Below are positions 9,732 through 63,147 of a stretch of DNA of 64,000 bases, piece by piece; position 1 is the first letter of the stretch, and each line of letters starts with the position of its first letter. This stretch comes from Gammaproteobacteria bacterium (GTDB taxonomy: Bacteria > Pseudomonadota > Gammaproteobacteria > JAABTG01): NCBI GenBank assembly GCA_034522055.1, contig JAXHLS010000002.1:1984001-2048000 (forward strand). The letters run 5' to 3'. A model generated the notes under the pieces. It did no database searches. It was not told the DNA's origin and saw only the letters and a list, made by a program, of their open reading frames with translations. A program made the translations under genes and the position numbers.

Positions 9732-9768
9732 CGCCCGACCCCTACAGATACACCACCACTGCTTGTTC

Positions 9769-10044
9769 CTTTGGCACGGATGTAGGTCGGGATTCATCCC
9801 GACATTAGACCCAACCGCACACACCACGGGCCGGGCCGGAGCCACCCGCCGGCGTCGGCTGTCGGGCTGAAGCCCGACCTACAGCCCGCCCTACACAACA
9901 CCCCCCCTGCCCATTCCTTTGGCACGGATGTAGGTCGGGATTCATCCCGACATTAAACTCCTCCCTGACCTTCTCCCTTTTCGCGTCATTTCGCGTCTTT
10001 CGCGGTTACGCTTTTAGCCTGTAGGTCGGGATTCATCCCGACAA
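9769..10044. repeat. Cluster of short palindromic repeats (locus 1)
   Basis: The gap between the desaturase and DUF3299 genes (9732-10049) contains no gene. It holds four palindromes: GTCGGGATTCATCCCGAC at 9786-9803, 9934-9951 and 10025-10042, and GTCGGGCTGAAGCCCGAC at 9861-9878. Most are preceded by GTAG or followed by CTAC, and two copies follow CCTTTGGCACGGATGTAG. The same units recur near 51.7 and 61.1 kb. They are REP-like elements; a transposase of the TnpA-REP (Y1) type could mobilise them, but none is in this window. Confidence 0.85.
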
Positions 10045-10049
10045 TCAAA

Positions 10050-10592
10050 CTATTCATAGGGTTCCACGGCGGTGGCGTCCAGCCGGTAGCCCGCTTCGGC
10101 GAGTTCGCTGGAGTTCTGCTCCACCCGCAAAGTGCCCGTGACCCACACGGTGTCGAACAGCTTGCCGCGGTAGGGCCGGTCCTCGGCGGTGACCACGTAT
10201 ACGGTCTGGTTGGCGGGCGGCGGCGGCACGTGGATACAGGCCCCGTAGTAGGGCACCAGCAGGAACTCGGCGATGGCCTCGGGTTCCACCTCCAGGGGCA
10301 CCACGAAGCCCGGCAGCCGTACCCGCCGGCCGTCCAACTCGGGCACCACCGGGGCCTCGTCCCACAGGGCCTTCAACTTGTCCATGAGTTCCTGGGCCCG
10401 GGGGTCGTCGTCGCTCAGGCCCTCGGCATCGAATTCAGCCAGCAGCTTGTCCGGCCGCCAGTCCTCCGGGATCAGGGCATCCCAATCCAGTTCCTCCGCG
10501 CTCCCGGCGGCCCGCGGGGCCTCACCGGCTGCCGTGAATAAAAACAGCATGGTCCCCAGGATCAGGGCTCTAGTGGTCATGGGATAGCGCAT
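10050..10592 (-). CDS. DUF3299 protein, last gene of the zinc operon
   Basis: A 180-residue exported protein: a signal peptide (TTRALILGTMLFLFTAAGEA), then a DUF3299 domain with the diagnostic stretch LPGFVVPLEVEPEAIAEFLL followed by VPYYGACIHVPPPPANQ. The Cys-x-His pair and proline-rich motif are invariant in the family and could bind metal. It starts 11 bp after the FtsX-like permease stop, with an AGGA-type ribosome binding site. In Pseudomonas the same trio (ABC ATPase, FtsX permease, DUF3299) is linked to Zur-controlled zinc loci, so a role in zinc trafficking across the envelope is inferred. Confidence 0.8.
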   Translation of the reverse strand: MRYPMTTRALILGTMLFLFTAAGEAPRAAGSAEELDWDALIPEDWRPDKLLAEFDAEGLSDDDPRAQELMDKLKALWDEAPVVPELDGRRVRLPGFVVPLEVEPEAIAEFLLVPYYGACIHVPPPPANQTVYVVTAEDRPYRGKLFDTVWVTGTLRVEQNSSELAEAGYRLDATAVEPYE

Positions 10593-15567: not shown

Positions 15568-15766
15568 TTAATGTGAAAGTCGCGAAGCACGAACTCCCCC
15601 TCTCCCTCTGGGACAAATCCGTCGGGAACGGATTTGAACGCGCCTTGGCGCGGCCCGCAGGGCGAAGGGCAGGACGCCTGGAGTACAGGGCTGGGGTGAG
15701 GGAACGAACATGGCGATACGCGCTTCTCTTTCATCATTTCGGGTGGCGCGTATCGCCATGAGAGTT
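15568..15766 (-). repeat. 199-bp dispersed element, copy A (in znuA leader)
   Basis: This segment recurs in opposite orientation at 26448-26648 and 27610-27808 with only scattered differences. In the orientation of copies B and C it begins AACTCTCATGGCGATACGCG and ends CTTTCACGTTAA. Near the first end CATGGCGATACGCGC pairs with GCGCGTATCGCCATG across a roughly 22-bp loop, and a second inverted pair (AAATCCGT/ACGGATTT) lies further in. It encodes no credible protein. It looks like a non-autonomous MITE-like element, and here it separates znuA from its probable operator. No clear target-site duplication is visible. Confidence 0.85.
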
Positions 15767-15820
15767 TTCTTGGATAAGGAACAGTAGCGGCGCGGGCGGC
15801 GGTACCCCGCCGATGGCTTT

Positions 15821-26447: not shown

Positions 26448-26648
26448 TTAACTCTCATGGCGATACGCGCCGCCCAAGATGATGAAAGAGGAGCGCGTAT
26501 CGCCATGTTCGTTCCCTCACCCCATCCCTGTACTCCGGGCATCCTGCCCTTCGCCCTGCGGGCCGCGCCAGGGCGCGTTCAAATCCGTTCCCGACGGATT
26601 TGTCCCAGAGGGAGAGGGGGCGTTCGTGCTTCGCGTCTTTCACGTTAA
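26448..26648 (+). repeat. 200-bp dispersed element, copy B
   Basis: Second copy of the element described at 15568-15766, in the opposite orientation. Both ends here carry TTAA (TTAACTCTC at the left, CACGTTAA at the right), and the flanking bases show TACC on both sides, a possible 4-bp target duplication. The 15-bp-stem hairpin and the AAATCCGT/ACGGATTT pair are conserved. It lies about 90 bp after xthA. Confidence 0.85.
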
Positions 26649-27427: not shown

Positions 27428-27609
27428 TGGGGCTTCCTCATGAGTTGTCGTTGCGGCGCGTGGCGGCTTCGCCGCGGCCGGCGCCGTTGTCGCGTTGTCT
27501 ATACCGGATGACCGGCGGCACGGGCTTGTTATGGCAATGGGCGCAGGAAGTAGCTTAGCCGGGATCAGAGGCCTCACCAAGTCCCCGCTGTTGTCGGCGC
27601 TTTCAAGGG

Positions 27610-27808
27610 AACTCTCATGGCGATACGCGCCACCCAAAATGGTGAAAGAGGAGCGCGTATCGCCATGTTCGTTCCCTCACCCCATCCCTGTACTCCGGGC
27701 ATCCTGCCCTTCGCCCTGCGGGCCGCGCCAAGGCGCGTTCAAATCCGTTCCCGACGGATTTGTCCCAGAGGGAGAGGGGGAGTTCGTGCTTCGCGACTTT
27801 CACGTTAA
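27610..27808 (+). repeat. 199-bp dispersed element, copy C
   Basis: Third copy of the element, almost identical to copy B and same orientation, only 1 kb away. The hairpin arms are at 27616-27630 and 27653-27667 (15 bp, perfect). The left end reads GGGAACTCTC rather than TTAACTCTC, while the right end keeps CACGTTAA. It lies in the divergent gap between the DUF4426 gene and the conserved unknown gene at 27923, so it may influence either promoter. Confidence 0.85.
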
Positions 27809-43054: not shown

Positions 43055-44203
43055 TCAATCCGCGGGCCCGGCGGCACGGGGGACGGGCCGGGGGTTGGGC
43101 CGGGGGTTGGGCAGGGGCAGCACGCGCACGGCCGGGGGCTCGCTGGTGAGTCGCAGGCGCTGCTCCATGGCTGGGGTCATTTCTATCTCCAGATCGGCGG
43201 TGATCACCAGGGCTTCGGTGACGCCGAGGCGCGCCGCCACCGCCGGCCAGGCGCCGGCGCCGGTTACCATCAGGGCGGTGGCGGCGGCATCGGCGGTGGT
43301 GGCGTCACCGTGTACCACCGTGGCGGAGGCGGCCCCGCGGCTGGGCCAGCCGGTGCGTGGATCGATGATGTGGTGGTAACGGGTGCCCTGCCATTCGAAG
43401 TGGCGTTCGTAGTCCCCTGACGTGAATACGCTCTCGTCCCCCGCCACCTCGAGCCGTGCCAGGGCCCCCGGGCCGCGGGGGTGGCGCACGCCGATCTGCC
43501 AGGGGCGCTCCCCCTTGCTGCCGATGGCCCGCAGGTCGCCGCCGGCGTTGATGACGGCGTCGTCGATGCCGAGTTCGCGCAGGCGCTCCATGGCACGGTC
43601 CACGCCGTAGCCTTTGGCGAAGGCCCCGAAGTCCAGGCGCACGGCGGTGTTGGTACAGCGCACCGTGGTGTCGTCCAGGTGGATATCGGTCATGGCCGGC
43701 GCCGCCGCCACCAGTTCGGCGATGGCCGCGACGGGGGGCGCCCGGGGCTCCGGCAGGTCGGCGTGGAAGCCCCACAGGGCCACCAGCCGGCCGATGGCGG
43801 GGTTGAACAGGCCGCTGCTGCGCTCCGACAGGGTGGTGCCGAGGCGTACCAGATCCACGACCCCCGGGTCACCTTCAAAGGGTTCGCCCGTGGCGCAGCG
43901 CTCGTTGAAGGTGCCGAGGGTGCCCGGGCGCCAGGCGTGCCAGGCCTCGTTCATGTAGTCGAACTCCCCGGCGAGGGCCTCGAAGGCCTGCTCCGCCAGG
44001 TCTGCCTCCACCCCCCACAGGGACACCTCGACGAGGGTGCCGAAGGTGTAGAGCTGGCGCTGATGCAGCTGGGGCGGGGCCTCGCAGCCCGCCGCCAGCA
44101 CCAGGACCAGGGGGAAGGCAAGGGCCGCCACGACGCAACGGCCGAGGATGTGGCGGCGTCCCGGGGGCCGGTTGCCCGGGCGCGGGCGGGCTGCCCCCGT
44201 CAC
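43055..44203 (-). CDS. apbE: FAD:protein FMN transferase ApbE (lipoprotein)
   Basis: A 382-residue flavin transferase. An N-terminal signal with lipobox-like LVLAAGC directs it to the membrane. Catalytic features: FGAFAKGYGVDRAM, NAGGDLRAIG, YHHIIDPRTGWPS and the metal-binding ATTADAAATALMV. It covalently attaches FMN to Thr/Ser in proteins such as NqrB/C or RnfG. Stop overlaps the tonB open frame upstream of its chosen start; start overlaps gshB by four bases. No nqr/rnf genes are visible in this window. Confidence 0.9.
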   Translation of the reverse strand: MTGAARPRPGNRPPGRRHILGRCVVAALAFPLVLVLAAGCEAPPQLHQRQLYTFGTLVEVSLWGVEADLAEQAFEALAGEFDYMNEAWHAWRPGTLGTFNERCATGEPFEGDPGVVDLVRLGTTLSERSSGLFNPAIGRLVALWGFHADLPEPRAPPVAAIAELVAAAPAMTDIHLDDTTVRCTNTAVRLDFGAFAKGYGVDRAMERLRELGIDDAVINAGGDLRAIGSKGERPWQIGVRHPRGPGALARLEVAGDESVFTSGDYERHFEWQGTRYHHIIDPRTGWPSRGAASATVVHGDATTADAAATALMVTGAGAWPAVAARLGVTEALVITADLEIEMTPAMEQRLRLTSEPPAVRVLPLPNPRPNPRPVPRAAGPAD

Positions 44204-45162
44204 GCGTCCCGGCGAGCGGTGAGGCGCTGGTGGATGGCGTCCATGAGGGTGCCGGCGATGTCCAGGCCGTAGATGGCGTCCAGCTCGCGGATGCAGGTGG
44301 GGCTCGTGACGTTGACCTCCGTGAGCCAGTCGCCAATGACGTCGAGGCCGACGAAGACGAGCCCCTTGTCCCGCAGGCAGGGGGCCACCCGGGCGCAGAT
44401 CTCGCGGTCACGCTCGGACAGGGGCACGCCCATGCCTCGCCCGCCGGCCGCCAGGTTGCCCCTGGTCTCGCCGCGGGCCGGGATGCGCGCCAGGGCATAG
44501 GGCACGGCCTCGCCGTCCACCAGCAGGATGCGCTTGTCGCCGTCGCGGATCTCGGGGATGAAGCGCTGTACCATGGTGTAACGCTGGCCGCGGTCGGTCA
44601 TGAGTTCCAGCACCACGCTGGTGTTGGGGTCGCCCTCCCGCAGCCGGAACACCGATTCGCCGCCCATGGCGTCCAGGGGTTTCAGGATCACGTCGCCGTG
44701 CTCCATGAGGAAGTCGCGGATGCGCTCGTTGTCACGGTCCACCAGGGTGGGGGTGCAGTACTCTGGGAACCAGGCGGTGTAGAGCTTCTCGTTGACGTCC
44801 CGCAGGGCCTGGGGGCGGTTCACCACCAGGGTGCCGTCGCGCTCTGCCGCCTCGAGGATATAGGTGGCGTAGATATACTCCCGGCGCACCGGCGGGTCCT
44901 TGCGCATCAGCACCACGTCCAGCTCGTACAGGGGGGCCAGGACCCGCGCCCCCAGCTCGTACCAGCCGCCGGGGTTGTCCGTGACGGTGACGGGGCGACG
45001 GCTGGCCCAGGCCACGCCGTCGCGCATCAGCAGGTCGTCGGGCTCCATGTACCACAGGCGCCAGCCGCGGGCCTGGGCCGCCAGCATCATGGCGAAGCTG
45101 GAATCCTTCTTGATGTTGATGGCCGCGATGGGGTCCATCACCACCCCTATGTCCACGGTCAT
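44200..45162 (-). CDS. gshB: Glutathione synthetase
   Basis: A 320-residue ATP-grasp ligase: IGVVMDPIAAINIKKDSSFA, MRKDPPVRREYIYATYI, KPLDAMGGESVFRLREGD and the C-terminal GLDVIGDWLTEVNVTSPTCI. It joins gamma-glutamylcysteine and glycine. It overlaps the thioredoxin-like gene by four bases, suggesting coordinated thiol metabolism in this operon. Confidence 0.95.
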   Translation of the reverse strand: MTVDIGVVMDPIAAINIKKDSSFAMMLAAQARGWRLWYMEPDDLLMRDGVAWASRRPVTVTDNPGGWYELGARVLAPLYELDVVLMRKDPPVRREYIYATYILEAAERDGTLVVNRPQALRDVNEKLYTAWFPEYCTPTLVDRDNERIRDFLMEHGDVILKPLDAMGGESVFRLREGDPNTSVVLELMTDRGQRYTMVQRFIPEIRDGDKRILLVDGEAVPYALARIPARGETRGNLAAGGRGMGVPLSERDREICARVAPCLRDKGLVFVGLDVIGDWLTEVNVTSPTCIRELDAIYGLDIAGTLMDAIHQRLTARRDA

Positions 45163-45647
45163 GGTGCGGGGTCCGGGGTGGCGAGGCGGGCCTCGGCGGT
45201 CTCGACGGCCCGCTCCAGGTAGGCCCCGTAGAAATCCACCGTGCCCAGACCCACCATGCGCCGGGCGAGTTCGCGGCCCTCGCCGTCGAGGAACAGCAGG
45301 GTGGGCACCAGGGACACGGCGTAACGTTGCGCGATGACGTCCGCCCCTCGTCGCGCGCCGTCGAAGTCGCGCACCGCGGGGCCGTCGATGGCGAGTTCCC
45401 GCAACAGCGCACGCCCGGCATAGTCGCCGCCGATGATCATGGGCACCAGGAATTCGTCGCGCACGCGGTCGCAGTAGCCGCAGTAGGAGGCGCTCATGAG
45501 GAGCACGATGGGGATGTCTCGGGCAGCGGCGCGGGCGCCGGCGTCGGCCAGGTCCCGCGTCAGCAGGGTCTCCCGGGGGTCGGCTGAGGCAGGCCCCGAG
45601 ACGAACAGGGCGAGCAGGGCGGCAAGGAAAATCGAAGTCTTGATCAT
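45159..45647 (-). CDS. Periplasmic thioredoxin-fold protein
   Basis: A 162-residue secreted protein: signal peptide ([20 protein letters not shown]), then a thioredoxin-like domain with active-site CGYC in [20 protein letters not shown] and cis-Pro region [13 protein letters not shown]. It resembles SoxW/DsbE-like thiol oxidoreductases; in a sulfur oxidiser it could reduce periplasmic Sox or cytochrome disulfides, but no sox genes are present here. The start at 45647 gives the signal peptide; the longer frame from 45719 does not. Confidence 0.8.
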
Positions 45648-45808
45648 CACGTCAAGGGGCCATGGAAAGGCTCCAGTATCCCATGCCCCCGGGGTGGTTG
45701 GCATCCCGTTCATTTGCATCGCCCGCGGGGCGACATTACTGTTTGCCCTCCCGCGGCGGCGATCCCGCCCGTCACCCCACCGTGGATCCCGAAAAGGTCG
45801 ACCATCCC

Positions 45809-46753
45809 ATGAACGTCATTCGAATCGCGACCCGCAAGAGCCCGTTGGCCCTGTGGCAGGCGGAGCACGTGGCCCAGCGACTGGTGGCGGCCCATCCCGG
45901 CCTGGCGGTGGAGTTGGTGACCATGACCACCCGCGGCGACCGCATCCTGGATGCCCCCCTCGCCAAGGTGGGGGGCAAGGGGCTGTTCGTGAAGGAACTG
46001 GAGCAGGGCATGCTGGAGTGCACGGCGGACATCGCCGTGCACTCCATGAAAGACGTGCCGGTGGAGTTTCCTGACGGTCTCCACCTGCCGGTGGTACTGG
46101 CCCGGGAGGACCCCCACGACGCCTTCGTGTCCAACCGCCTCGATCGTTTCGAGGACCTGCCGGAGGGCGCCGTGCTCGGCACCTCCAGCCTGCGCCGCCA
46201 GGTGCAGTTGCGGGCCCTGCGGCCGGACCTCCGGGTACGGGATCTGCGGGGCAACGTGAATACCCGCCTGGCCAAGCTCGATGGTGGCGACTACGACGCC
46301 ATCGTGCTGGCGAGTGCGGGTCTCATGCGGCTGGGGATGGGGGGACGCATCGCCAGCCGCCTGACCACGGAGCAGTGTCTGCCCGCCATCGGCCAGGGCA
46401 TCATCGGCATCGAATGCCGTAGCGGCGATGGCTCCGTGGAGGCCCTCATCGCCCCCCTGGCGGATCGCGACAGCACCCTGCGCATCACCGCCGAGCGGGC
46501 CCTCAACCGGCGCCTCGCGGGGGGCTGCCAGGTGCCGGTGGCGGGCCACGCGGAACTCGTGGGGGAGACCCTGCGGTTGCGGGGGTTGGTGGGGCGGCTG
46601 GATGGCAGCGAGGTGCTGCGGGACGAGGTGAGCGGTGCCCCGGAGGATGGCGAGCGGTTGGGCATCGAGCTCGCCGAGGCCCTCATCGCCGCCGGTGCCG
46701 ATGTCATCCTGCGGGAGGTCCTGGGGGAGGCCGGTGGCCACCCGGCCGCTTGA
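45809..46753 (+). CDS. hemC: Hydroxymethylbilane synthase
   Basis: A 314-residue porphobilinogen deaminase: [63 protein letters not shown] and the dipyrromethane-binding Cys in [10 protein letters not shown]. It makes the linear tetrapyrrole precursor of heme and siroheme. Start at 45809 ([12 protein letters not shown]) chosen by family match. Overlaps hemD by 20 bp. Confidence 0.95.
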
Positions 46754-47534
46754 GGGCCTGGGGGTGGTGGTGACCCGTCCGCGCCACCAGGCCGCCGGGC
46801 TGGTGGCCGAGTTGGAGCGCCGGGGTGCCCGGGTCATGGAGTATCCCCTGCTGGAGGTGGCACCACCCACGGACGAGGCCCCCGCCCGAGCCCTGGTGGA
46901 CCGTCTCGACGACTACGGCCTGGCCATCTTCATCAGCGCCAACGCGGCCCAGTGGGGGCTGGAGTTGGTGCGCCGCCGGGGGCGCAGCCTCGCCGGGTTG
47001 GAGGTGGCGGCGGTTGGTGGCGCCACCGCCCGCGCCCTGGCGGCCCAGGGCGTGCGCCCCGCCGTGGTGCCGCACCAGCGCTTCACCAGCGAGGGTCTGC
47101 TGGAGCTGCTGCCCGCCGAACGGGTGGCGGGGCGGCGCATCATCATCTTTCGCGGCGAGGGGGGGCGGGCCCTGTTGGCGGACGAATTGAGGGCACGGGG
47201 CGCGCGGGTTGACTATGCTGAGGTCTATCGCCGGGTGATGCCGCAAGACACCGACGGCGGGCGGCTGACGGCGGCCTGTGGGGCCGGGGAGGTGGACGTG
47301 CTGTTGCTCACCAGCCGCGAGGCCATGGAGAATCTGGTGGCCATCGCCGGCCCGGGGCTCGATGCCTGTACCGGGGGCGTGCGTCTGCTGGTGGTGAACG
47401 AGGACATGGTGGCGCGGGCCCGCGAATTCGGCTTCCGTCTGAGGCCCCTGGTGGCGGCGCGGCCCGACGACGCCAGCCTCGTGGCGGCCCTCGAGGGCTG
47501 GCAGGCCGCCGGGCGTGCGGAGGCTTCGCCTTGA
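46734..47534 (+). CDS. hemD: Uroporphyrinogen-III synthase
   Basis: A 266-residue HemD, identified by [57 protein letters not shown] and [13 protein letters not shown]. It closes hydroxymethylbilane into uroporphyrinogen III. GTG at 46734 ([16 protein letters not shown]) is chosen over upstream out-of-character residues; a GGAGG precedes it closely. Downstream, hemX/hemY, which follow in many Gammaproteobacteria, are absent and a PTS cluster follows instead. Confidence 0.88.
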
Positions 47535-47589
47535 AGAGATACCGGCCGTCGCCGCTTTTCCCGGCATCCACGAACACTGGGGCAGCCAT

Positions 47590-47982
47590 TTGAGCGTTGG
47601 TGTATTGCTGATCACCCATGATTGCATCGGCTCCAGCCTGGTGGCCGCGGTCACCCGCATGCTGAGCGAGCTGCCCCTGGCCCTGGACAGCCTCGACGTG
47701 CCCTGCGACAGCGACCCGGACGAGATGGCGGCCCTGTTGTGCCGGCGGCTCGAGGCCATGGATCAGGGCGATGGCGTCCTGTTGTTGACGGACATCTTCG
47801 GCGGCACCCCCAGCAACATCGCCTGCAATGCAGCGTCGGGGATCCCGGTCCGCATGGTGGCGGGGGTCAATCTGCCCATGCTGGTGCGGGTGCTCAACTA
47901 CCCGCAGCTGCCACTGGGCGAACTCGCCGAGAAGGCCCTGAGCGGGGGCAGGGAAGGCGTGTTCGCAGGGAACGAGGCCTGA
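47590..47982 (+). CDS. PTS EIIA component, mannose/sorbose type
   Basis: A 130-residue EIIA-Man fold protein. A TTG at 47590 gives LSVGVLLITHDCIGSSLVAA, which places the phosphorylatable histidine at position 10 (THD), exactly as in the family; DGVLLLTDIFGGTPSNIAC is the second signature. No EIIB/EIIC gene is nearby, so it probably acts as the terminal regulatory phosphoacceptor of the HPr/EI relay rather than in sugar uptake. It overlaps the upstream frame around hemD but not hemD itself. Confidence 0.85.
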   Translation: MSVGVLLITHDCIGSSLVAAVTRMLSELPLALDSLDVPCDSDPDEMAALLCRRLEAMDQGDGVLLLTDIFGGTPSNIACNAASGIPVRMVAGVNLPMLVRVLNYPQLPLGELAEKALSGGREGVFAGNEA

Positions 47983-47983
47983 T

Positions 47984-48259
47984 ATGGCGCAGCTGGAACG
48001 GGAGGTCACCATTGTCAACAAGCTGGGGCTCCACGCCCGGGCCGCCGCCAAGTTCGTCACCCTGGCTGGCTCGTTCGATTCCACGGTGCACCTGTGGCGG
48101 GACGGCCGCGAGGTGAACGCCAAGAGCATCATGGGGGTGATGATGCTGGCGGCGGCCAGGGGCACGGTGTTGCGCCTGGTGGTGGAGGGTCCCGATGCCG
48201 AGGAAGCCGCCGCGGCCCTCGGTGGTCTGGTGGAGAACCGCTTCGGAGAGGAGGAATGA
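47984..48259 (+). CDS. ptsH: Phosphocarrier protein HPr
   Basis: A 91-residue HPr: catalytic His17 in NKLGLHARAAAKFV and Ser48 in NAKSIMGVMMLAA, the site used by HPr kinase where that is present. It starts one base after the EIIA stop and overlaps ptsI by four bases. No hprK is present in the window. Confidence 0.94.
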   Translation: MAQLEREVTIVNKLGLHARAAAKFVTLAGSFDSTVHLWRDGREVNAKSIMGVMMLAAARGTVLRLVVEGPDAEEAAAALGGLVENRFGEEE

Positions 48260-50001
48260 GCGTCCTGCTGCGCGGCATCTGCGCCGCCAAGGGCGTGGCC
48301 ATGGGGCACCTCTACGTGGCCGATCGTTCCCAGCTCGAGGTGACGGAGTACGCGCTGGCGCCGCAACAGGTGGAGGCCGAGGTGGCCCGCCTGTTCGCGG
48401 GTGTGGAATCCGCGCGGCGCCAGCTCCAGGAGGTCAAGCGGCGCATCCCCACGGACACCTCGGCGGATATCGCCTCCTTCATCGATACCCACCTGCTGAT
48501 GCTGCAGGACTCTGCCCTCACCACCGTGCCGGCCCAGATCATCCGCGAGCGGGCGTGCAACGCCGAGTGGGCCCTCAAGGTGCAGCGCGACGACCTGGTG
48601 CGCGTCTTCGAGGCCATGGATGACGGTTATCTGCGTACCCGCAAGGACGATGTGGAGCATGTGGTGGCGCGCATTCAGCATGCGTTGCTGGGAAAGAGCG
48701 CCGGTGACCCCGTGGCGGAAGAGGATGCCCTGGCCGGCCATGTGGTATTGGCCCGCGACCTGTCGCCGGCCGAACTGGTGTTGCTCAACCACCAGGGCGT
48801 GGTGGGCATCATCACCGAATTCGGTGGGCCCACCTCCCACAGCGCCATCCTCGCCCGCAGCCTGCGCCTGCCGTCGGTGGTGGGCCTGCACCAGGCTCAT
48901 ACCTATCTGAAGGACGGCGACACGGTGATCGTGGATGGTCGCGAAGGCGTCGTCGTCGTTGACGCCGATGCCCGCATCACCAATTACTACCAGGGACTCA
49001 AGGAGAGCATCTACACCCACCACAAGCAGCGGGAACGGCTGCGGGACAAGCCCGTGGTCACCCGCGATGGCCACGCCATCCGGCTCCACGCCAACATCGA
49101 GTTGCCGGAGGACGTGGTGGCGGTGCGCCAGGTGAACGCCGCGGGGGTCGGCCTCTACCGTACCGAATTCCTGTTCATGAACCGCGCCACGCCGCCGGAC
49201 GAGGAGGAGCAGGTGGAGGCCTACGCCTCCGTGGTCCTGGCCCTCGACGGGGCACCGGTCACCATCCGCACCCTGGACGTGGGCGCGGACAAGTCCTGTG
49301 ACAGCGTGCGCGGGGGCAGCGAATCCGTGTGTATCAATCCGGCCCTCGGCCTGCGCGCGGTACGCCTGTGCCTGCGCGAGACCGGGGTCTTCCTCACCCA
49401 GCTGCGGGCCATCCTGCGGGCCGCGGCCCTGGGGGAGGTGCGTCTCATGGTGCCCATGGTGTCCACGGTGGCCGAGGTGCGCCAGGTGCGCCAGCTGGTG
49501 GAGATGGCCCACCAGTCCCTGGTACAGGACGGTCTCGAGCATGCCGCCGCCGTACCCCTCGGGGTCATGGTGGAGGTGCCGGGCACCGCTTTGGCGGCGG
49601 ATCTCTTCGCGCCCCACCTGGATTTTCTCTCCATCGGCACCAATGACCTCATCCAGTACACTCTGGCCATCGATCGCCTGGATGACGAGGTGAACTACCT
49701 TTATGACCCCTTGCACCCCGCCGTGCTACGACTCGTCGATATCATCCTGCAGGCGGGCGCGGCAGCGGGGATCCCGGTCAGCATGTGCGGCGAGATGGCG
49801 GGCAACTCCAGCTATACCCGGCTGCTGTTGGGGCTGGGCTTGCGGGAGTTCAGCGTACCCCCCAACGCCCTGCTGGAGATCAAGCAGGCCATCAACGAGA
49901 GCGATGTCCAGGATGCGGCCGCCATCGCCCGGGCATTTCTCGGCGTCAGTGACGGGGACGCCCGGCGCCAGCTCCTCGGCCGGCTCGGCATCGACGCCTG
50001 A
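48256..50001 (+). CDS. ptsI: PTS enzyme I
   Basis: A 581-residue enzyme I: phosphohistidine region GGPTSHSAILARSL (about residue 190), phosphoenolpyruvate-binding VGLYRTEFLFMNR, and C-terminal FLSIGTNDLIQYTLAIDR and SMCGEMAGN with the catalytic Cys. It takes phosphate from PEP to HPr. The start at 48256 (ATGA overlap with ptsH) gives MSVLLRGICAAKGVAMGHLY. No GAF domain, so it is PtsI- rather than PtsP-like. Confidence 0.94.
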   Translation: MSVLLRGICAAKGVAMGHLYVADRSQLEVTEYALAPQQVEAEVARLFAGVESARRQLQEVKRRIPTDTSADIASFIDTHLLMLQDSALTTVPAQIIRERACNAEWALKVQRDDLVRVFEAMDDGYLRTRKDDVEHVVARIQHALLGKSAGDPVAEEDALAGHVVLARDLSPAELVLLNHQGVVGIITEFGGPTSHSAILARSLRLPSVVGLHQAHTYLKDGDTVIVDGREGVVVVDADARITNYYQGLKESIYTHHKQRERLRDKPVVTRDGHAIRLHANIELPEDVVAVRQVNAAGVGLYRTEFLFMNRATPPDEEEQVEAYASVVLALDGAPVTIRTLDVGADKSCDSVRGGSESVCINPALGLRAVRLCLRETGVFLTQLRAILRAAALGEVRLMVPMVSTVAEVRQVRQLVEMAHQSLVQDGLEHAAAVPLGVMVEVPGTALAADLFAPHLDFLSIGTNDLIQYTLAIDRLDDEVNYLYDPLHPAVLRLVDIILQAGAAAGIPVSMCGEMAGNSSYTRLLLGLGLREFSVPPNALLEIKQAINESDVQDAAAIARAFLGVSDGDARRQLLGRLGIDA

Positions 50002-50067
50002 TCCACACCCCAGGCGCGGGGACGATATACTGGCCACCGCGCCATCGTGTCTGCCAATGGACCCCCC

Positions 50068-51429
50068 ATGACCCCCGACAACGAGATTCCCCCGGACCAG
50101 CAGCTGCTCCATGAACTGAGCGCGGCCCTCGGCAGCGAGGACCAGGAGCAGGCCGCCCAACTGCTGGCGGAGCAGCATCCCTCTGACGTCGCCGAGTTGC
50201 TGGAGTCCATCCCCTCCAGCCAGCGCGGCGAGGTATGGGAGCTGCTGGAGCCCGAGCATCGCGACAGTGTGTTCACCTACACGGAGGACACGGTCCGTTC
50301 CGAGCGCCTGCGCCAGATGGCGCCCGATGAGTTGGCGAGCGTCGCGGAAGGCCTGGAAGTGGACGATGTGGCGGACATCCTCCAGGACCTGCCGGAGTCC
50401 ATGGTGGAGGAGGTGCTGGCCTCCATGGACGAGCAGAACCGGCGCCGCCTGGAGCAGGTGCTGTCCTACGATGAGGACAGCGCCGGCGGCCTCATGAACG
50501 TGGACGTGCTCACGGTGCGCGCCGACGTGAGCCTGGAGGTGGTGGCCCGCTATCTGCGCCGCAAGGGCGAGGTGCCGGAGCATACCGACAGCCTCATGGT
50601 GGTGGACCGCGACAACGTCTATCTGGGGCGCCTGCCCCTGAGTGCCATCATCATCAACGACCCCGCCACCCCGGTGGCCCAGGTCATGAACACCGAGGCC
50701 GAGGGGATCCCCGTGGAGACCTCCGAGCGGGACGTGGCCAAGCTTTTCGAGCACCGCGATTTCGTCTCGGCCGCGGTGGTGGACGACGACGGCGTGCTTC
50801 TCGGCCGCATCACCGTGGACGATGTGCTGGACGTGATCCGGGACGAGGGGGAGCACCAGCTCATGGGCATGGCGGGCTTAAGCGAGGAGGAGGACATGTT
50901 CGCCCCCGTGATGTCCACCACCCGGCGCCGCGCCCTGTGGCTGGGGGTGAACCTGGCCACCGCCTTTCTCGCCGCCTGGGTCATCGGCCTGTTCGAGGCC
51001 ACCATCCAGGAGGTGGTGGCACTGGCGGTGCTCATGCCCATCGTGGCCAGCATGGGCGGCATCGCCGGCAGTCAGACCCTGACGGTGGTGATCCGCGGCA
51101 TGGCTCTCGGGCAGCTGGGCTCCCGCAACACCCGCTACCTGTTCACCAAGGAGGTGGCCGTGGGCGCCCTCAACGGCCTGGTGTGGGCCGTGGTGGTGGG
51201 GCTGGTGGCGGGCTGGTGGTTCGGCAACCTGGGGCTCGCCATCATCATCGCCGTGGCCATGGTGGTGAACCTGGTGGTGGCGGCCCTGTTCGGCGCCGCC
51301 ATCCCCCTGCTATTGAAGCGCTTCGACATCGACCCCGCCCTGGCGGGCGGCGTGGTGCTCACCACCGTCACCGACGTGGTGGGTTTCATGACCTTCCTTG
51401 GCTTGGGGACGGTGTTCCTGCTGGGGTGA
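50068..51429 (+). CDS. mgtE: Magnesium transporter MgtE
   Basis: A 453-residue MgtE: an N-terminal superhelical N domain (ELLESIPSSQRGEVWELLEP; EGLEVDDVADILQDLPE), two CBS domains (MNVDVLTVRADVSLEVVARY; PVETSERDVAKLFEHRD), the plug-helix region and five transmembrane helices with the pore signature ASMGGIAGSQTLTV. It lets Mg2+ enter under cytoplasmic Mg2+ gating. A GTG at 50047 would add seven residues. 66 bp after ptsI. Confidence 0.94.
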   Translation: MTPDNEIPPDQQLLHELSAALGSEDQEQAAQLLAEQHPSDVAELLESIPSSQRGEVWELLEPEHRDSVFTYTEDTVRSERLRQMAPDELASVAEGLEVDDVADILQDLPESMVEEVLASMDEQNRRRLEQVLSYDEDSAGGLMNVDVLTVRADVSLEVVARYLRRKGEVPEHTDSLMVVDRDNVYLGRLPLSAIIINDPATPVAQVMNTEAEGIPVETSERDVAKLFEHRDFVSAAVVDDDGVLLGRITVDDVLDVIRDEGEHQLMGMAGLSEEEDMFAPVMSTTRRRALWLGVNLATAFLAAWVIGLFEATIQEVVALAVLMPIVASMGGIAGSQTLTVVIRGMALGQLGSRNTRYLFTKEVAVGALNGLVWAVVVGLVAGWWFGNLGLAIIIAVAMVVNLVVAALFGAAIPLLLKRFDIDPALAGGVVLTTVTDVVGFMTFLGLGTVFLLG

Positions 51430-51639: not shown

Positions 51640-51925
51640 TCGTAGGTCGGTTGCTCTCGGCAACCGACATCTGCGCCCGTAAAGCGCCGAGTTTCCGTCG
51701 GCTGCCAGGAACAGCCGACCTACAGGTACACCCCCTTTTTTTCCGGCGGCACGAAGGTCGGGATTCATCCCGACAATCAAACCCGCCGTGCATACCTCGG
51801 GCCGGGCCGGAGCCACCCGCCAGCGTTCGGTGTCGGGCTGAAGCCCGACCTACATCCGTGCCAAAGGAATGGGCGGTGGGGGTGTTGTGTAGGTCAGGTT
51901 GTAGGTCGGGCTTCAGCCCGACATG
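51640..51925. repeat. Cluster of short palindromic repeats (locus 2)
   Basis: The mgtE-tal gap (51430-51942) has no gene. Besides the heptamer arrays it contains hairpins at 51646-51668 (GTCGGTTGC arms), 51697-51719 (GTCGGCTG arms), 51757-51774 (GTCGGGATTCATCCCGAC), 51832-51849 (GTCGGGCTGAAGCCCGAC) and 51905-51922 (GTCGGGCTTCAGCCCGAC). The spacer GGGCCGGGCCGGAGCCACCC also occurs at the 9.8-kb locus, so a larger composite unit was duplicated. Confidence 0.85.
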
Positions 51926-51942
51926 CGGGGCTTTGACCCCCA

Positions 51943-52911
51943 TCAATCGCAGTCGGTGCAGGCCTTGAGGGCGAAGCGTTCCAGCTTGGCGGCGTCGGCG
52001 GCGAAGTTGCGGATCCCCTCGGCCAGTTTCTCGGTGGCCATGGGGTCCTCGTTCATCTCCCAGCGGAAGGCCTTCTCGTCCAGCTCGATACGGTCGTCGC
52101 CCAGTTCCGCGGCCCGCGCAGGCTCGAGCCGGCGGGGCACGTCGCCCTCCATGGCGTCCAGCTCCGCCATCAGGTTGGGGGCGATGGTGAGGAGGTCGCA
52201 GCCTGCCAGCTCCAGGATCTCGCCACTGTTGCGGAAGCTTGCGCCCATCACCGTGGTGTCGTAGCCGTGGCGCTTGTAATAGTTGTAGATGCGGGTCACG
52301 GACTTCACGCCCGGGTCGTCCTGGGGGGCATAGCCCTCCACTCCCTCGTTCTTCTTGTACCAGTCCATGATGCGGCCCACGAAGGGGGAGATGAGGGTGA
52401 CGCCGGCATCGGCGCAGGCTACCGCCTGGGAAAAGCCGAACATCAGGGTGAGGTTGCAGTGGATGCCCTCGCGCTCGAGGAATTCGGCGGCACGGATCCC
52501 CTCCCAGGTGGAGGCGATCTTGATGAGGATGCGGTCTTTGGCGACGCCGGCGGCGTCGTAGAGGCCCAGCAGTTGCATGGCGCGGCCGATGGTGCCCTGG
52601 GTGTCGAAGGACAGGCGCGCGTCCACCTCGGTGGAAACGCGCCCGGGCACGAGCTTCAGGATCTCGCAACCGAAGTTGACCGCCAGCTTGTCCATCATCA
52701 GCCGGATCTGCTCGGCGTCGTTCTTGCCGCGGCTCTTGCCGTAGTCCACGGCGTCGTCCACCAGGTGCCGGTAACCTTCCATCTGGCCCGCCTTCAGCAG
52801 CAGGGACGGGTTGGTAGTGGCGTCGACGGGCTTGTGGGCGGCGATGGCGTCGATGTCGCCGGTGTCGGCCACCACCTGGGTCATGCCGCGTAATGTCTCG
52901 AGCTTACTCAT
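51943..52911 (-). CDS. tal: Transaldolase
   Basis: A 322-residue TalB-type transaldolase: [15 protein letters not shown], Schiff-base Lys region [34 protein letters not shown] and [11 protein letters not shown]. It moves dihydroxyacetone units between sugar phosphates in the non-oxidative pentose phosphate pathway. It is the intact end of the tal-glk-zwf-gnd block whose glk and gnd members are degraded. Ends in Cys-rich ACTDCD. Confidence 0.95.
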
Positions 52912-52939
52912 AACACCTCCTGATTGATCGGGTAGTCCT

Positions 52940-53169
52940 TCATGGTCGCAGCGCCGGGCGATGGGATTCGTTACTCCCTGTGGCTACGGCGTGACGGGCG
53001 GCGCCGAGCAGGGCCGCCCCGGGGTTCATTACCACCTTTACCGGGACCCGCGCAAGCAGCCCCGCCATTCTGCCCTTGTTGAGAAAACCCGTCATGAAGC
53101 CCGGGCCCTGCAGGTGAACAGCCCCAGCTCCGTCTTGGTGCCGCCGATGTCGCCGCCGATGACCCTCAT
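52940..53169 (-). pseudogene. glk: Glucokinase pseudogene (large internal deletion)
   Basis: On the minus strand the start overlaps the zwf stop (ATGA) and reads [18 protein letters not shown], the N-terminal phosphate-binding loop of glucokinase; the frame then hits a stop after about 25 residues. In another frame the sequence continues GFMTGFLNKGRMAGLLARVP, then VKVVMNPGAALLGAARHA, which matches the C-terminal end of glucokinase. Only about 75 of a normal 320-odd residues are represented, so roughly three quarters of the gene is deleted and the join is out of frame. It cannot encode a functional enzyme. Confidence 0.85.
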
Positions 53170-54698
53170 TCCAGGTTCTGCCAGGCGCGACCGTCCCGGG
53201 CCAGTAACGTTTCGGCGTCGGCAGGCCCCCAGCTCCCCGCCGCGTAGTTGGGGAAGTCGCGGGGTCGCAGGGCACTCCACACGTCGAGGATGGGGGCCAC
53301 CACGCCCCAGCCGGCCTCGATGCTGTCGGCGCGCTGGAACAGGGTGGCGTCGCCACGGATGGCATCGTAGAGCAGGGTCTCGTAGCCGGTGGCCGGGGGC
53401 AGGCCGAAGCGCTCCTTGTAGCAGAACTCCAGTTCGGCATTGCTGATGTGCACCACCGGCCCCGGCCGCTTGGCGCCGAAGCGCATGAGGATGGCCTCCC
53501 GGGGCTGGATGCGCAGCACCAGCTGGTTGGGTACTAGGTGATCCACCGGAGTCTTGCTGAACATCATGAAGGGCACCCGCTTGAACTGGATCAGGATCTC
53601 CGTCTGGCGCGATGCCATGCGCTTGCCGGTGCGCAGGTAGAAGGGCACGTCGGCCCAGCGCCAGTTGTCCAGCTGGAGCTTCATGGCGGCGTAGGTCTCG
53701 ATGGGGGAGTCCGCCCTCACGCCGGGTTCCTCGCGATAACCGGCCGCCTGCTCGCCCCCCGGCATGGTGCCGGGGCCGTACTGGCCGCGCACCGCCTGGG
53801 TGAGCACGTCTTCCGGGGACAGGGGCTGAATCGCCTTGAGGACATCGCCCTTGTTGTTGCGCACCGCCTCGGCGTCGAAGGACGAAGGGGGCTCCATGGC
53901 GATGAAGGAGAGCAGCTGCATCATGTGGTTGGGGACCATGTCCCGCAGCGCGCCGGCCTCCTCGTAATAGCCGGCGCGGTGGCCCACCGCGAGGTCCTCG
54001 GCCACCGTGATCTGGACGTGGTCCACGTAGCTGCGGTTCCATACCGGCTCGAAGATGGCGTTGGCAAAGCGGAATACCAGCAGGTTCTGTACCGTCTCCT
54101 TGCCCAGGTAATGGTCGATACGGTAGATCTGGGTCTCGTTGAGGGTCTCCAACAGCGCGCGGTTGAGGGCGCGGGCCGATTCCAGATCGTGGCCGAAGGG
54201 TTTCTCGATCACCACCCGGTGACGGGCCTCTTCGGTGCGGCTGACCACCCCGGCGGCGCCCAGGCGAGCCACGATGTCACCGAACAGGCTGGGGGGTGTC
54301 GCCAGATAATGGAGGTGGTTGCCGCCGGTCTGCCAGTGCTCGTCCATGGCGGTGATGTGGTCGCCGAGGCGCCCGTAGTAGTCGTCATCGTGGAAATCGC
54401 CACCGACGTAGCTGACGCGCTCCAGCAGCCAGCGCCACACGCCGTCGTCGAAATCCTCCCCCACGTGTTCGCGCACCGTCTCGTCGAGATGGGCGCGGAA
54501 GGCGTCGTCCGAGAGGTCATTGGAGGCCGTGCCGATGACCGCGAAGGCATCCTGGAGCAGGCCGTCGCGGGCGAGGTTGTAGAGGGCCGGCATCAGCTTG
54601 CGCCGAGTCAGGTCTCCGGATGCGCCGTAGATGATTACGGCGCCCGGCTGCACCGGCTCGGGGGCGGCCATGAATCCGTCGCTATGGCTGTCGCTCAT
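53166..54698 (-). CDS. zwf: Glucose-6-phosphate 1-dehydrogenase
   Basis: A 510-residue G6PD: NADP-binding [20 protein letters not shown], active-site [20 protein letters not shown] and [20 protein letters not shown]. It is full length with all key motifs and produces 6-phosphogluconolactone with NADPH. It lies between the degraded gnd-like remnant (upstream) and glk remnant (downstream), whose start overlaps its stop. An in-frame ATG at 54671 ([10 protein letters not shown]) is an alternative start. Confidence 0.95.
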
Positions 54699-54710
54699 CA
54701 GTTTTGTTCC

Positions 54711-54848
54711 TCAGTCCAGATCGCGGGTGCCCTGTTCGATGTGGTCGCCGAACTGCTCGCGCATGGCGGACAACATCTTGTTGGCCTTGTTGGCGAAGTT
54801 GGTTTCCTGGCGCGAACGGAAGCCGGAGTAACGGAATTCGCCACCCCC
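54711..54848 (-). pseudogene. gnd: C-terminal remnant of 6-phosphogluconate dehydrogenase
   Basis: On the minus strand, a frame ending 13 bases before zwf reads YSGFRSRQETNFANKANKML, then SAMREQFGDHIEQGTRDLD. This resembles the last helix of the short, GntZ/YqeC-type decarboxylating 6-phosphogluconate dehydrogenases, which end with FRSRx4FxxKxLSAMRxxFGGH. Only about 40 residues remain of roughly 300, and upstream sequence (GGGEF and before) is unrelated and lacks a start with a ribosome binding site. Order gnd-zwf-glk-tal is known in sulfur-oxidising bacteria. Assignment is by motif, not search. Confidence 0.6.
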
Positions 54849-55110
54849 CGCCGGGCTTGTTGTCCGGCCTGTTGGTTGCGCGAGGGGCGGCAGGATCGTG
54901 TGCACCCATGGGACCTCTACCGGCCGGCGATGATTTCACGAGTGGCCACGATATCACGGTCACCGACGCGAGAAACGGCACCGGTGTCGGCTCTGGATGG
55001 AGGCCCCGATCGGTCCATCATCAAATGTCAAAGTCGTCCCTCGCGTTCGGGGGTTAGGATCTCCAACCTCAGTCAACCACATACAGGCATCAAGCCTTAA
55101 GGAGTGGAAC

Positions 55111-56046
55111 ATGTCCGACAATCCCATCATCGCCATCAACATGAGCAAGGTGACCAACAGCCCCGAGTCCTACGAGACCATGAGCAAGGTGGGCCCCAAG
55201 GTGTGTATCACCACCGCCAAGCACCCCGGTTTCATGGGTTTCGAACAGCTGTTGCAGACGGGGATCCATCCCATGGGCGGGCGCTACGGCGGCGGCGCCC
55301 TGGATATGCGGGAGACCCTGAATCCCATCGGCATGTATCAGTACACGGTGTGGAAGGACGTCAAATCCCACGAGGAGATGCACTACGAGCAGTTCGACAC
55401 CATCTATGAACTCTGCGGCGCCTGCCTGGATATGGTGGTGGAGGGGCCCTGGGAACCCCTGTACGAGATCCGGGCCTCGGACCTGCCGCCGGTGCTGGCC
55501 ATGACCGATGTGCCCCATACCCTCGGTGCCAGCTTCGCCCAGCAACAGCCCGTGCCCAAGGTGGCCCTGGCCTCCCAGCGGGCGGTGGTGGTGGGGGACC
55601 ACTGGGTCATGGACGGCCACGAGCAGGCCTTCGAGGAAGGCGCAGTGGAGACCCTGAAGTGGCTGAAGGAGAACGCCCCCGGCATGATCGGCTGGATGGT
55701 GCTCAAGCAGATGGGGGTGTCGGCCATCGGTTCCTTCCAGCTCGACCCGGAAGGCGCTACCAAGGCCACCCTGGGGGCCAATCCGCCGGCCTACAATACC
55801 AACTACGGCGATCAGCCCGGGGATACGCCCCCCATCCCCGCCCAGACGCCGGCCCAGTACTTCGTCCACATGGAGTGGGAGACGCCGGAGCACGCCCACC
55901 AGGGGCTGGGCAAGGCCCTGGTGAACTACGAGTTGCTGCAGATCCATAACCAGGGCGTCCTCGCCCATGTGGACCGCGGGCCCTACTACATGATCTTCGC
56001 CCCCATGATGGAGGAGGGCACCTGGCGCAAGCACCTGGTGCGGTAA
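55111..56046 (+). CDS. sor: Sulfur oxygenase reductase
   Basis: A 311-residue SOR, an enzyme that disproportionates elemental sulfur with O2 to sulfite, thiosulfate and sulfide without cofactors. By comparison with the Acidianus enzyme, recalled from knowledge, the active site is complete: catalytic Cys32 in GPKVCITTAKHPGF, iron ligands His87 and His91 in SHEEMH and Glu115 in GPWEPLYEI, and the accessory CxxC at 102-105 (CGAC). The protein has the family beginning MSDNPIIAINMSK and ends MEEGTWRKHLVR. AAGGAG precedes the ATG by six bases. Bacterial SORs are known from Thioalkalivibrio paradoxus, Halothiobacillus-like and Acidithiobacillus relatives. It is a cytoplasmic 24-mer in known cases. 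No operon partner; next genes are a remnant and a PhnD-like transporter. Confidence 0.95.
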   Translation: MSDNPIIAINMSKVTNSPESYETMSKVGPKVCITTAKHPGFMGFEQLLQTGIHPMGGRYGGGALDMRETLNPIGMYQYTVWKDVKSHEEMHYEQFDTIYELCGACLDMVVEGPWEPLYEIRASDLPPVLAMTDVPHTLGASFAQQQPVPKVALASQRAVVVGDHWVMDGHEQAFEEGAVETLKWLKENAPGMIGWMVLKQMGVSAIGSFQLDPEGATKATLGANPPAYNTNYGDQPGDTPPIPAQTPAQYFVHMEWETPEHAHQGLGKALVNYELLQIHNQGVLAHVDRGPYYMIFAPMMEEGTWRKHLVR

Positions 56047-56085: not shown

Positions 56086-56307
56086 GTGTCCGCCGCGACG
56101 CGGAATCTCCATGCCAGGCCGTCGGCCATCGGCCGCTTCGCAGCCGCAGCCGCAGCCGGGCCGCGGCGGTTGGTGCTCTCCCATCTGATGGCGCGCAGCC
56201 TGCGTGACCTGGAGGGCCAGCTCGAGCGGGTGCGTGAGCATTATGACGGGCCCCTCACGGTGGCCGAGGACCTGCAGTCCATACCCCTCGACATCGCCTG
56301 GGATTGA
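56086..56307 (+). pseudogene. C-terminal remnant of an MBL-fold metallohydrolase
   Basis: A 73-residue open frame. Its second half GPRRLVLSHLMARSLRDLEG, then QLERVREHYDGPLTVAEDLQ resembles the C-terminal part of metallo-beta-lactamase-fold hydrolases of the RNase Z/arylsulfatase-like group, where a conserved LVLSH provides the last metal-ligand histidine. The first 30 residues (MSAATRNLHARPSAIGRFAA) are basic and may include the AAEIGRIAxxAG-like helix; the whole N-terminal two-thirds of the fold, including HxHxDH, is missing. Probably a truncated gene; a small independent protein is possible. Confidence 0.5.
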
Positions 56308-61048: not shown

Positions 61049-61287
61049 TTCGCAAGCTCACCCCAACCTTGTATACCCAACCACCGCCTGCTCCTTTGGC
61101 GCGGATGTCGGGATTCATCCCGACATCCGATCCCGCCCCATGCACCCCGCGCCGGGTAGGAAACCCCACCGGCGGACTGTCGGGCTGAAGCCCGACCTAC
61201 AGCCCGACCCACAGATGCACCATGACTGGCTGTTCCGGCAGCACGGATGTAGGTCGGGATTCATCCCGACATCCGGCCTTCTGATTC
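61049..61287. repeat. Cluster of short palindromic repeats (locus 3)
   Basis: Contains GTCGGGATTCATCCCGAC at 61107-61124 and 61253-61270 and GTCGGGCTGAAGCCCGAC at 61179-61196, in the same order as locus 1, and CCTTTGGCGCGGATGTCGGG in common with it. It separates the GxxExxY remnant from the group II intron. Between 60787 and 61812 no intact gene exists: only remnants, these repeats and the intron's 5' half. Confidence 0.85.
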
Positions 61288-61812: not shown

Positions 61813-63147
61813 ATGTCGCTAACAACTCCGGAAAAGATCAGGACGCTGCAGAGGAAGCTCTACGTCAAGGCCAAGCAAGAGCCGGCGTTTCGCTTCTACG
61901 CCTTGTATGACGAGGTCTATCGGGCAGACACTCTCGGTCACGCCTATGATCGTGTCAGGTCCAATCGGGGCGCGCCAGGAATCGATGGTGTGACCTGTGA
62001 GGCCATCGAGGCGGGGGTCGGAAGAGACGCCTACTTGGCGGAATTGCAACGGGAACTGGAGCAGAAGACGTACGGCGCGGACGGCGTGCGTCGGGTCTGG
62101 ATACCCAAGCCGGATGGCAGTGAGCGCCCATTGGGGATCCCCACAATCCGGGATCGGATCGTACAGATGGCGCTCAAGCTGGTGGTGGAGCCGATCTTCG
62201 AGGCTGATTTCTGCGAGCACTCCTATGGATTTCGCCCGCAGCGCTCGGCCCATGATGCGGTGAAGGCCGTCACCGACGGTCTGTTTCAGGGAAAGACCCA
62301 AATCATCGATGCGGATCTATCGAAGTATTTCGATACGATCCCGCACGCCAAGCTCATGGCCGTGGTTGCCGAGCGCCTTGCCGATGGGGGCGTCCTCGCC
62401 CTCATTCAGCAATGGCTCAAGGCCCCGGTCATCGAAGAGGATGGGCGAGGCAAGCAACGCCCGAGTGGCGGTAAAGGGAATCGGAAAGGGACGCCGCAAG
62501 GCGGGGTTGTTTCCCCGCTGCTGGCCAATCTTTATCTACATCTGCTGGACCGGATTTGGGAACGGCACGACTTGGAACGGCGGTTAGGGGCGCGCCTCGT
62601 GCGTTACGCTGACGATGCCGTGATTCTGTGTCGTGGGGACACCGCGCCGGCCATGGCGGTGCTTGAGACGGTGCTGACACGCCTGGAGTTGACGCTCAAC
62701 CGGGAGAAAACCCACGTGGTCGATGCCCGCCGACAGGCGTTCGACTTTCTTGGCTTCAGCATCAAATGGGCACGCAGCCGACGAACCGGCAACGGCTACC
62801 CTCACGTTGAGCCGAGCCGCCGCGCCGAACGAAGGATCAAGGCGCGCATCAAGGAACTCACCGCGCGGCGCCGCACCCCGGTGCCGATGCCGCGTATGAT
62901 CACGGAAGTCAACCAAGTGCTACGCGGCTGGTCGGGCTACTTCCACCACGGCAACTGCACCAAGGCTTTCGGACGCGTCCGGTGGTTCACTGAGGAACGC
63001 GTGCGTACCCAACTGCGGCGGCGTCACAAAGTGCGCACTCGCACGCGCGGTTACGAACGCTTTCCCTACGCCCACCTCCACGACGCCCTTGGATTACTCA
63101 AGCTATCCCACAAAGCAGGCTGGCGCTCAGCGCATGCCTTGGCGTGA
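61813..63147 (+). CDS. ltrA: Group II intron reverse transcriptase/maturase
   Basis: A 444-residue intron-encoded protein. Reverse transcriptase blocks: GAPGIDGVTCEAI, PLGIPTIRDRIVQMALKLVV, SYGFRPQRSAHDAVKAV, DADLSKYFDTIPH, GTPQGGVVSPLLANLYLH and active-site RYADDAVILCRG (YADD at 265-268). The maturase X/GIIM part follows (FDFLGFSIKWARSR; VNQVLRGWSGYFHHGN). There is no HNH endonuclease domain at the C-terminus, so mobility would rely on nicked or single-stranded targets. The ORF is full length and intact. Confidence 0.94.
   Translation: MSLTTPEKIRTLQRKLYVKAKQEPAFRFYALYDEVYRADTLGHAYDRVRSNRGAPGIDGVTCEAIEAGVGRDAYLAELQRELEQKTYGADGVRRVWIPKPDGSERPLGIPTIRDRIVQMALKLVVEPIFEADFCEHSYGFRPQRSAHDAVKAVTDGLFQGKTQIIDADLSKYFDTIPHAKLMAVVAERLADGGVLALIQQWLKAPVIEEDGRGKQRPSGGKGNRKGTPQGGVVSPLLANLYLHLLDRIWERHDLERRLGARLVRYADDAVILCRGDTAPAMAVLETVLTRLELTLNREKTHVVDARRQAFDFLGFSIKWARSRRTGNGYPHVEPSRRAERRIKARIKELTARRRTPVPMPRMITEVNQVLRGWSGYFHHGNCTKAFGRVRWFTEERVRTQLRRRHKVRTRTRGYERFPYAHLHDALGLLKLSHKAGWRSAHALA

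Follow-up and report, generated by a model that had tools for sequence, protein, structure and literature searches.

A pseudogenised 3' end of a short-chain gnd upstream of zwf, very probably left in a redundant gnd-zwf-glk-tal cluster eroded by deletion

The minus-strand frame directly upstream of zwf in the window (the whole 64,000-nucleotide stretch of DNA analysed) very probably holds the pseudogenised 3' end of a short-chain 6-phosphogluconate dehydrogenase (6PGDH) gene, gnd, in a redundant second gnd-zwf-glk-tal cluster which has been eroded by deletion. The organism is not without a 6PGDH gene, and this corrects a possible misreading of its metabolism. The locus would also illustrate how a redundant operon decays, with different deletions seen in two members of the same genus. 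The features of the window and of the second gene set, located on contig C6 of the same genome, are as follows.

51943-52911, minus strand: tal (transaldolase, TIGR00874), intact, from family match
52987-53117, minus strand: C-terminal piece of glk, following a 781-bp deletion (against the sister genome) that shifts the frame, from alignment
53118-53169, minus strand: N-terminal piece of glk, with the zwf stop and the glk start codon overlapping (ATGA), from sequence and alignment with the sister genome
53166-54698, minus strand: zwf (glucose-6-phosphate dehydrogenase, G6PD), apparently intact, second copy, of the clade of gnd-zwf(-glk) operons, from profiles, tree and alignment
54711-54830, minus strand: short-chain gnd remnant, C-terminal approximately 35 codons and tail, from profile and alignment
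54777-54794, minus strand: 9-bp tandem duplication within the gnd remnant, adding Ala-Asn-Lys, from sequence and alignment
54831-54905, minus strand: non-gnd stretch in frame with the gnd remnant, past the break point, with GTG start at 54905
55111-56046, plus strand: sulfur oxygenase reductase (SOR) gene, sor, divergent from the block, from Pfam match
C6:911450-912142, own genome: pgl
C6:912189-913637, own genome: second zwf
C6:913704-914573, own genome: long-chain gnd, full-length

Identity and damage of the gnd remnant

The minus-strand frame from 54905 to 54711 comprises 64 codons and its stop lies 12 bases 5' of the zwf start codon (54698). In profile searches, residues 26-58 of this frame matched the C-terminal end of both short-chain 6PGDH profiles over about 33 residues. 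NF007161 was aligned at profile positions 270-299 of 302 (E = 9e-5) and TIGR00872 at positions 267-296 of 299 (E = 0.001), while trimming to 54711-54848 gave E-values of 3.6e-5 and 4.6e-4, respectively. A PDB sequence search at E <= 10 returned four chains, all 6-phosphogluconate dehydrogenases, with individually weak E-values of 0.023-0.43. The Pfam search of the remnant gave no 6PGD match, and only a sub-threshold Arm-DNA-bind_2 hit was observed (E = 0.036 to 0.1). A custom profile was also built from 58 short gnd proteins, all near-full-length matches; the distinct proteins are fewer than 58 because one gene of a same-family Gammaproteobacteria MAG (G002) is counted repeatedly, as L009, L087 and L162. 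When this profile was run on the six-frame segments of the window with at least 15 residues (n = 1471), the remnant frame ranked first with 24.1 bits (E = 1.4e-6), about 18 bits ahead of the runner-up (6.4 bits, E = 0.33), and was the sole significant gnd match across the six frames. The match is short, at about 33 residues, and taken one by one the models give modest E-values, from 1e-3 to 1e-6. Since the remnant tops all 1471 segments with the runner-up far below, the resemblance to gnd is real, and as judged from its sequence the fragment at 54711-54830 is a true short-chain gnd tail.

The original prediction had likened this frame to the final helix of short-form 6PGDH and proposed a peptide search against 6PGDH C-termini. 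The likeness was confirmed by the matches to both profiles and by the first rank in the scan, and the match of the peptide ends at the profile C-terminus. The predicted span of 54711-54848 stands for 54711-54830 only: in the alignment, homology to gnd begins at about 54830, and the frame upstream of YSGF, including 54831-54848, is unlike gnd.

Compared with the 338-aa protein of the same-family MAG (L009), the remnant is without about residues 1-305. The entire coenzyme-binding domain is gone, as is the greater part of the helical domain, and the C-terminal helix is left. In short-chain 6PGDH this helix is swapped between subunits, as described in a review (PMC8900737). With approximately 300 residues absent, the remnant scores 18-23 bits, below the curated cut-offs of TIGR00872 and NF007161 (297 or 271 bits). 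It also carries damage of its own. The Ala-Asn-Lys insert corresponds to a gap in 58/58 short gnd relatives, and the remnant reads FGDH where the relatives read FGGH, the second glycine being kept in 58/58 (the repeated G002 gene is included in both counts). Going by what is left of it, the remnant cannot be an active dehydrogenase; it is a leftover, not a working 6PGDH.

The frame might instead have been kept as a short translated leader for ribosome coupling to zwf, which starts 12 bases further on. It has a GTG at 54905 with AGAGG about 8 nt upstream and stays open up to its stop before zwf, and the gnd of G002 likewise ends just 5' of zwf. Open frames of similar length are frequent in the G+C-rich window, however, and the loss of the invariant glycine and the 9-bp duplication also argue against this possibility. 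The sister genome has no copy of the frame for a comparison of conservation, and a scan of 54600-55200 for sigma-70-like promoters found none. A retained leader is therefore unlikely, and pseudogenised debris of gnd is the preferred reading of the frame.

The flanks of zwf and the second pentose-phosphate set

The window zwf encodes 510 aa with both Pfam domains and matches TIGR00871 at 602 bits against a cut-off of 400.6. Of the 83 positions that are near-invariant across 80 operon-type zwf proteins it retains 80, with three changed, and of 58 such positions among 106 zwf proteins it retains 57. It looks intact and may still be active. On its other side, 781 bp are absent from the middle of glk relative to the intact glk of the sister genome, and the two ends now lie in different frames. 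These data, together with the TIGR00874 match of tal, agree with what had been predicted, namely intact zwf and tal genes and a glk deletion on the other zwf flank. No other PF02685 glucokinase was found in a search of the own genome, and the single ROK-family kinase (C6:1102934-1103833) scored 136 bits against the ROK glucokinase cut-off of 260; glucose phosphorylation through classical glk thus appears to be lost in this genome. Glucose 6-phosphate derived from glycogen or gluconeogenesis requires no glk.

A complete pgl, zwf and long-chain gnd set is present on C6. The long-chain NADP gnd product there has 482 aa and scores 757 bits against the TIGR00873 cut-off of 426.7. The two zwf genes of the genome fall in different clades. 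In a quick tree with many open forks, covering 107 proteins (106 and the window copy; nine entries were skipped by name as duplicates, split zwf matches or loci retrieved a second time with more sequence), the window zwf fell within an 81-row clade (support 99) which includes Acidobacteriota, Chromatiaceae, Cyanobacteriota and others. Its placement inside this clade was not resolved, and Acidobacteria MAGs come next to it at 64-65%. The C6 zwf grouped with the zwf of the sister genome (support 100), and both belong to a different clade made up of same-class rows. The window cluster was probably acquired laterally.

The original prediction had pointed to a cell with G6PD and no 6PGDH, and to loss of the oxidative branch, with the proviso that gnd might lie elsewhere. 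The proviso applies: C6 carries an intact long-chain gnd, and with pgl and the second zwf also intact there is no loss of the oxidative branch from the cell. The proposed search for gnd, pgl and edd elsewhere thus yielded a complete gnd and pgl, while for edd (TIGR01196) nothing in the own genome exceeded the cut-off (best 236 bits against 708). The best edd candidate is ilvD instead, at 770 bits against 618, and an Entner-Doudoroff route was rejected on these grounds. 6-Phosphogluconate from the orphan zwf would presumably be handled by the long-chain NADP enzyme.

It is distinctly unlikely that the orphan zwf, without its NAD-type 6PGDH partner and divergent from sor, has been kept for a role of its own, co-expressed with sulfur oxidation behind a leader coupled through the gnd tail, with bulk pentose-phosphate flux carried by the C6 set. 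If true, a separate zwf role would be a small, testable point on carbon-metabolism redundancy in a probable sulfur oxidiser. A genuine loss of the oxidative pentose phosphate branch, with zwf leading into an Entner-Doudoroff pathway or a dead end, would account for the truncation of both gnd and glk at this locus; the intact C6 genes and the absence of edd above cut-off, its best match being ilvD, make it very improbable. The cluster can be regarded as redundant because the complete pgl, zwf and long-chain gnd set lies elsewhere in the cell, and this redundancy may be the reason why the loss was tolerated. Ordinary loss of a redundant cluster is favored since the complete second set has been retained.

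The sister genome and the sor neighbour

The sister comparison covers one genus member (G001), a draft of approximately 290 contigs, and from it the order and number of deletions are not firmly polarised. Window positions 43884-51427 and 51901-52924 are about 90% identical to its flanks. On its contig C196 (L159), tal, an intact glk and sor are adjacent, with neither zwf nor gnd between glk and sor. The single zwf detected in the sister genome is of the C6 type and lies beside a long gnd and pgl. An intact short gnd is absent from both genomes, and the short-gnd profile found no match in the noncoding glk-sor gap of the sister. Local alignment of the window gap with this glk-sor gap scored 104.5 (100 mononucleotide shuffles gave at most 79), which suggests that the two gaps share sequence, with no break point placed exactly.

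As the window kept zwf while the sister kept glk, the two genomes have lost different parts of one block. The ancestral block would have been gnd-zwf-glk-tal, a second pentose-phosphate cluster divergent to sor, whose genes, being redundant, could be lost by deletion. In the window lineage most of gnd and glk would have been lost with zwf and tal kept, and in the sister lineage gnd and zwf would have been lost with glk and tal kept. The loss of zwf and gnd here in the sister, with glk retained, points to a redundant block eroding differently in each lineage.

The window sor matches PF07682 at 471 bits (cut-off 25) and NF047630 at 288 bits, under the stricter cut-off of 400. It shows 93.5% DNA and 98% protein identity to its orthologue in the sister genome, which has a second sor copy, 62% identical, on another contig. 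Relatives of sor were found in 11 of the 369 genomes of the class searched, and outside the genus none of the genes zwf, gnd, glk, tal and pgl was found beside sor within the flanks examined, about 1.5 kb for most. The block faces sor in both genomes. The idea that gnd was truncated by an insertion of sor in the window lineage alone was rejected, because sor adjoins the block in the sister genome too. Past sor, positions 38-984 of L159 hold the 3' end of a frame which, read by eye, resembles a metallo-beta-lactamase. A short stretch of the window, 56086-56307, can be aligned to this frame (83.6% over 189 bp at 56099-56287), and a further truncated gene just beyond the window sor is possible.

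Repeats were also observed in the window. Dispersed intergenic repeats with the palindrome-like core GTCGGGATTCATCCCGACA occur in both orientations at 9750-10079, 51748-51923 and 61098-61277. Three copies of about 200 bp, 94-97% identical and one of them inverted relative to the other two, lie at 15568-15772, 26450-26648 and 27604-27808. The 444-aa frame at 61813-63147 presumably encodes a group II intron reverse transcriptase/maturase, which it resembles.

Comparison with known gene clusters

The zwf loci compared were the best 80 of 581 confirmed. The upstream count took in the 69 loci with 1100 or more bases 5' of zwf (11 of 80 were left out for insufficient DNA), and in 47 of them a short gnd lies on the zwf strand no more than 1000 bases upstream. 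The downstream count took in the 72 with 1100 or more bases 3' of zwf (8 of 80 left out likewise), and in 22 of them glk follows within 300 bases. Both neighbors are present at 18 loci of the best 80. On these counts gnd-zwf-glk is a recurrent cluster, and the window carries the debris of such a cluster on both sides of zwf. The shortness of the match, the weak PDB E-values and the missing Pfam 6PGD hit would favor chance likeness in a G+C-rich frame. This explanation is practically negligible, given the first rank and wide lead in the six-frame scan and the fact that strand, end of the frame and spacing from zwf are all correct for the very place where gnd stands in 47 of the 69 loci counted upstream.

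The closest likeness is to the short gnd found directly 5' of zwf on the same strand in the MAG MO_133.B26 (L009, the G002 locus, with intact short gnd, zwf and pgl consecutive and gnd stopping just upstream of zwf), in Thiocapsa roseopersicina (L052) and in Thiohalocapsa (L014). The window remnant shares with these three the C-terminal FxSR..xF(A)xKxLSAMRxxFGxH; in contrast to them, it has the last approximately 35 residues only, FGDH for FGGH and the 9-bp duplication. The gene order short gnd, zwf, glk is also found in Acidobacteriota, Methylomirabilota and Tectomicrobia (L010, L012, L013, L015). There gnd and glk are intact, whereas both are truncated in the window, and the window cluster differs further in having tal next in line and a divergent sor; no full-length tal was found near those clusters in the stretches examined. 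The arrangement of the window is not reported in the literature among the matches listed. In its partial deletions, its sister-specific losses and its intact paralogous set, the locus resembles ordinary pseudogenes left by the reductive loss of redundant operons and shows no difference in kind from them. It is a degraded redundant operon of an ordinary kind.
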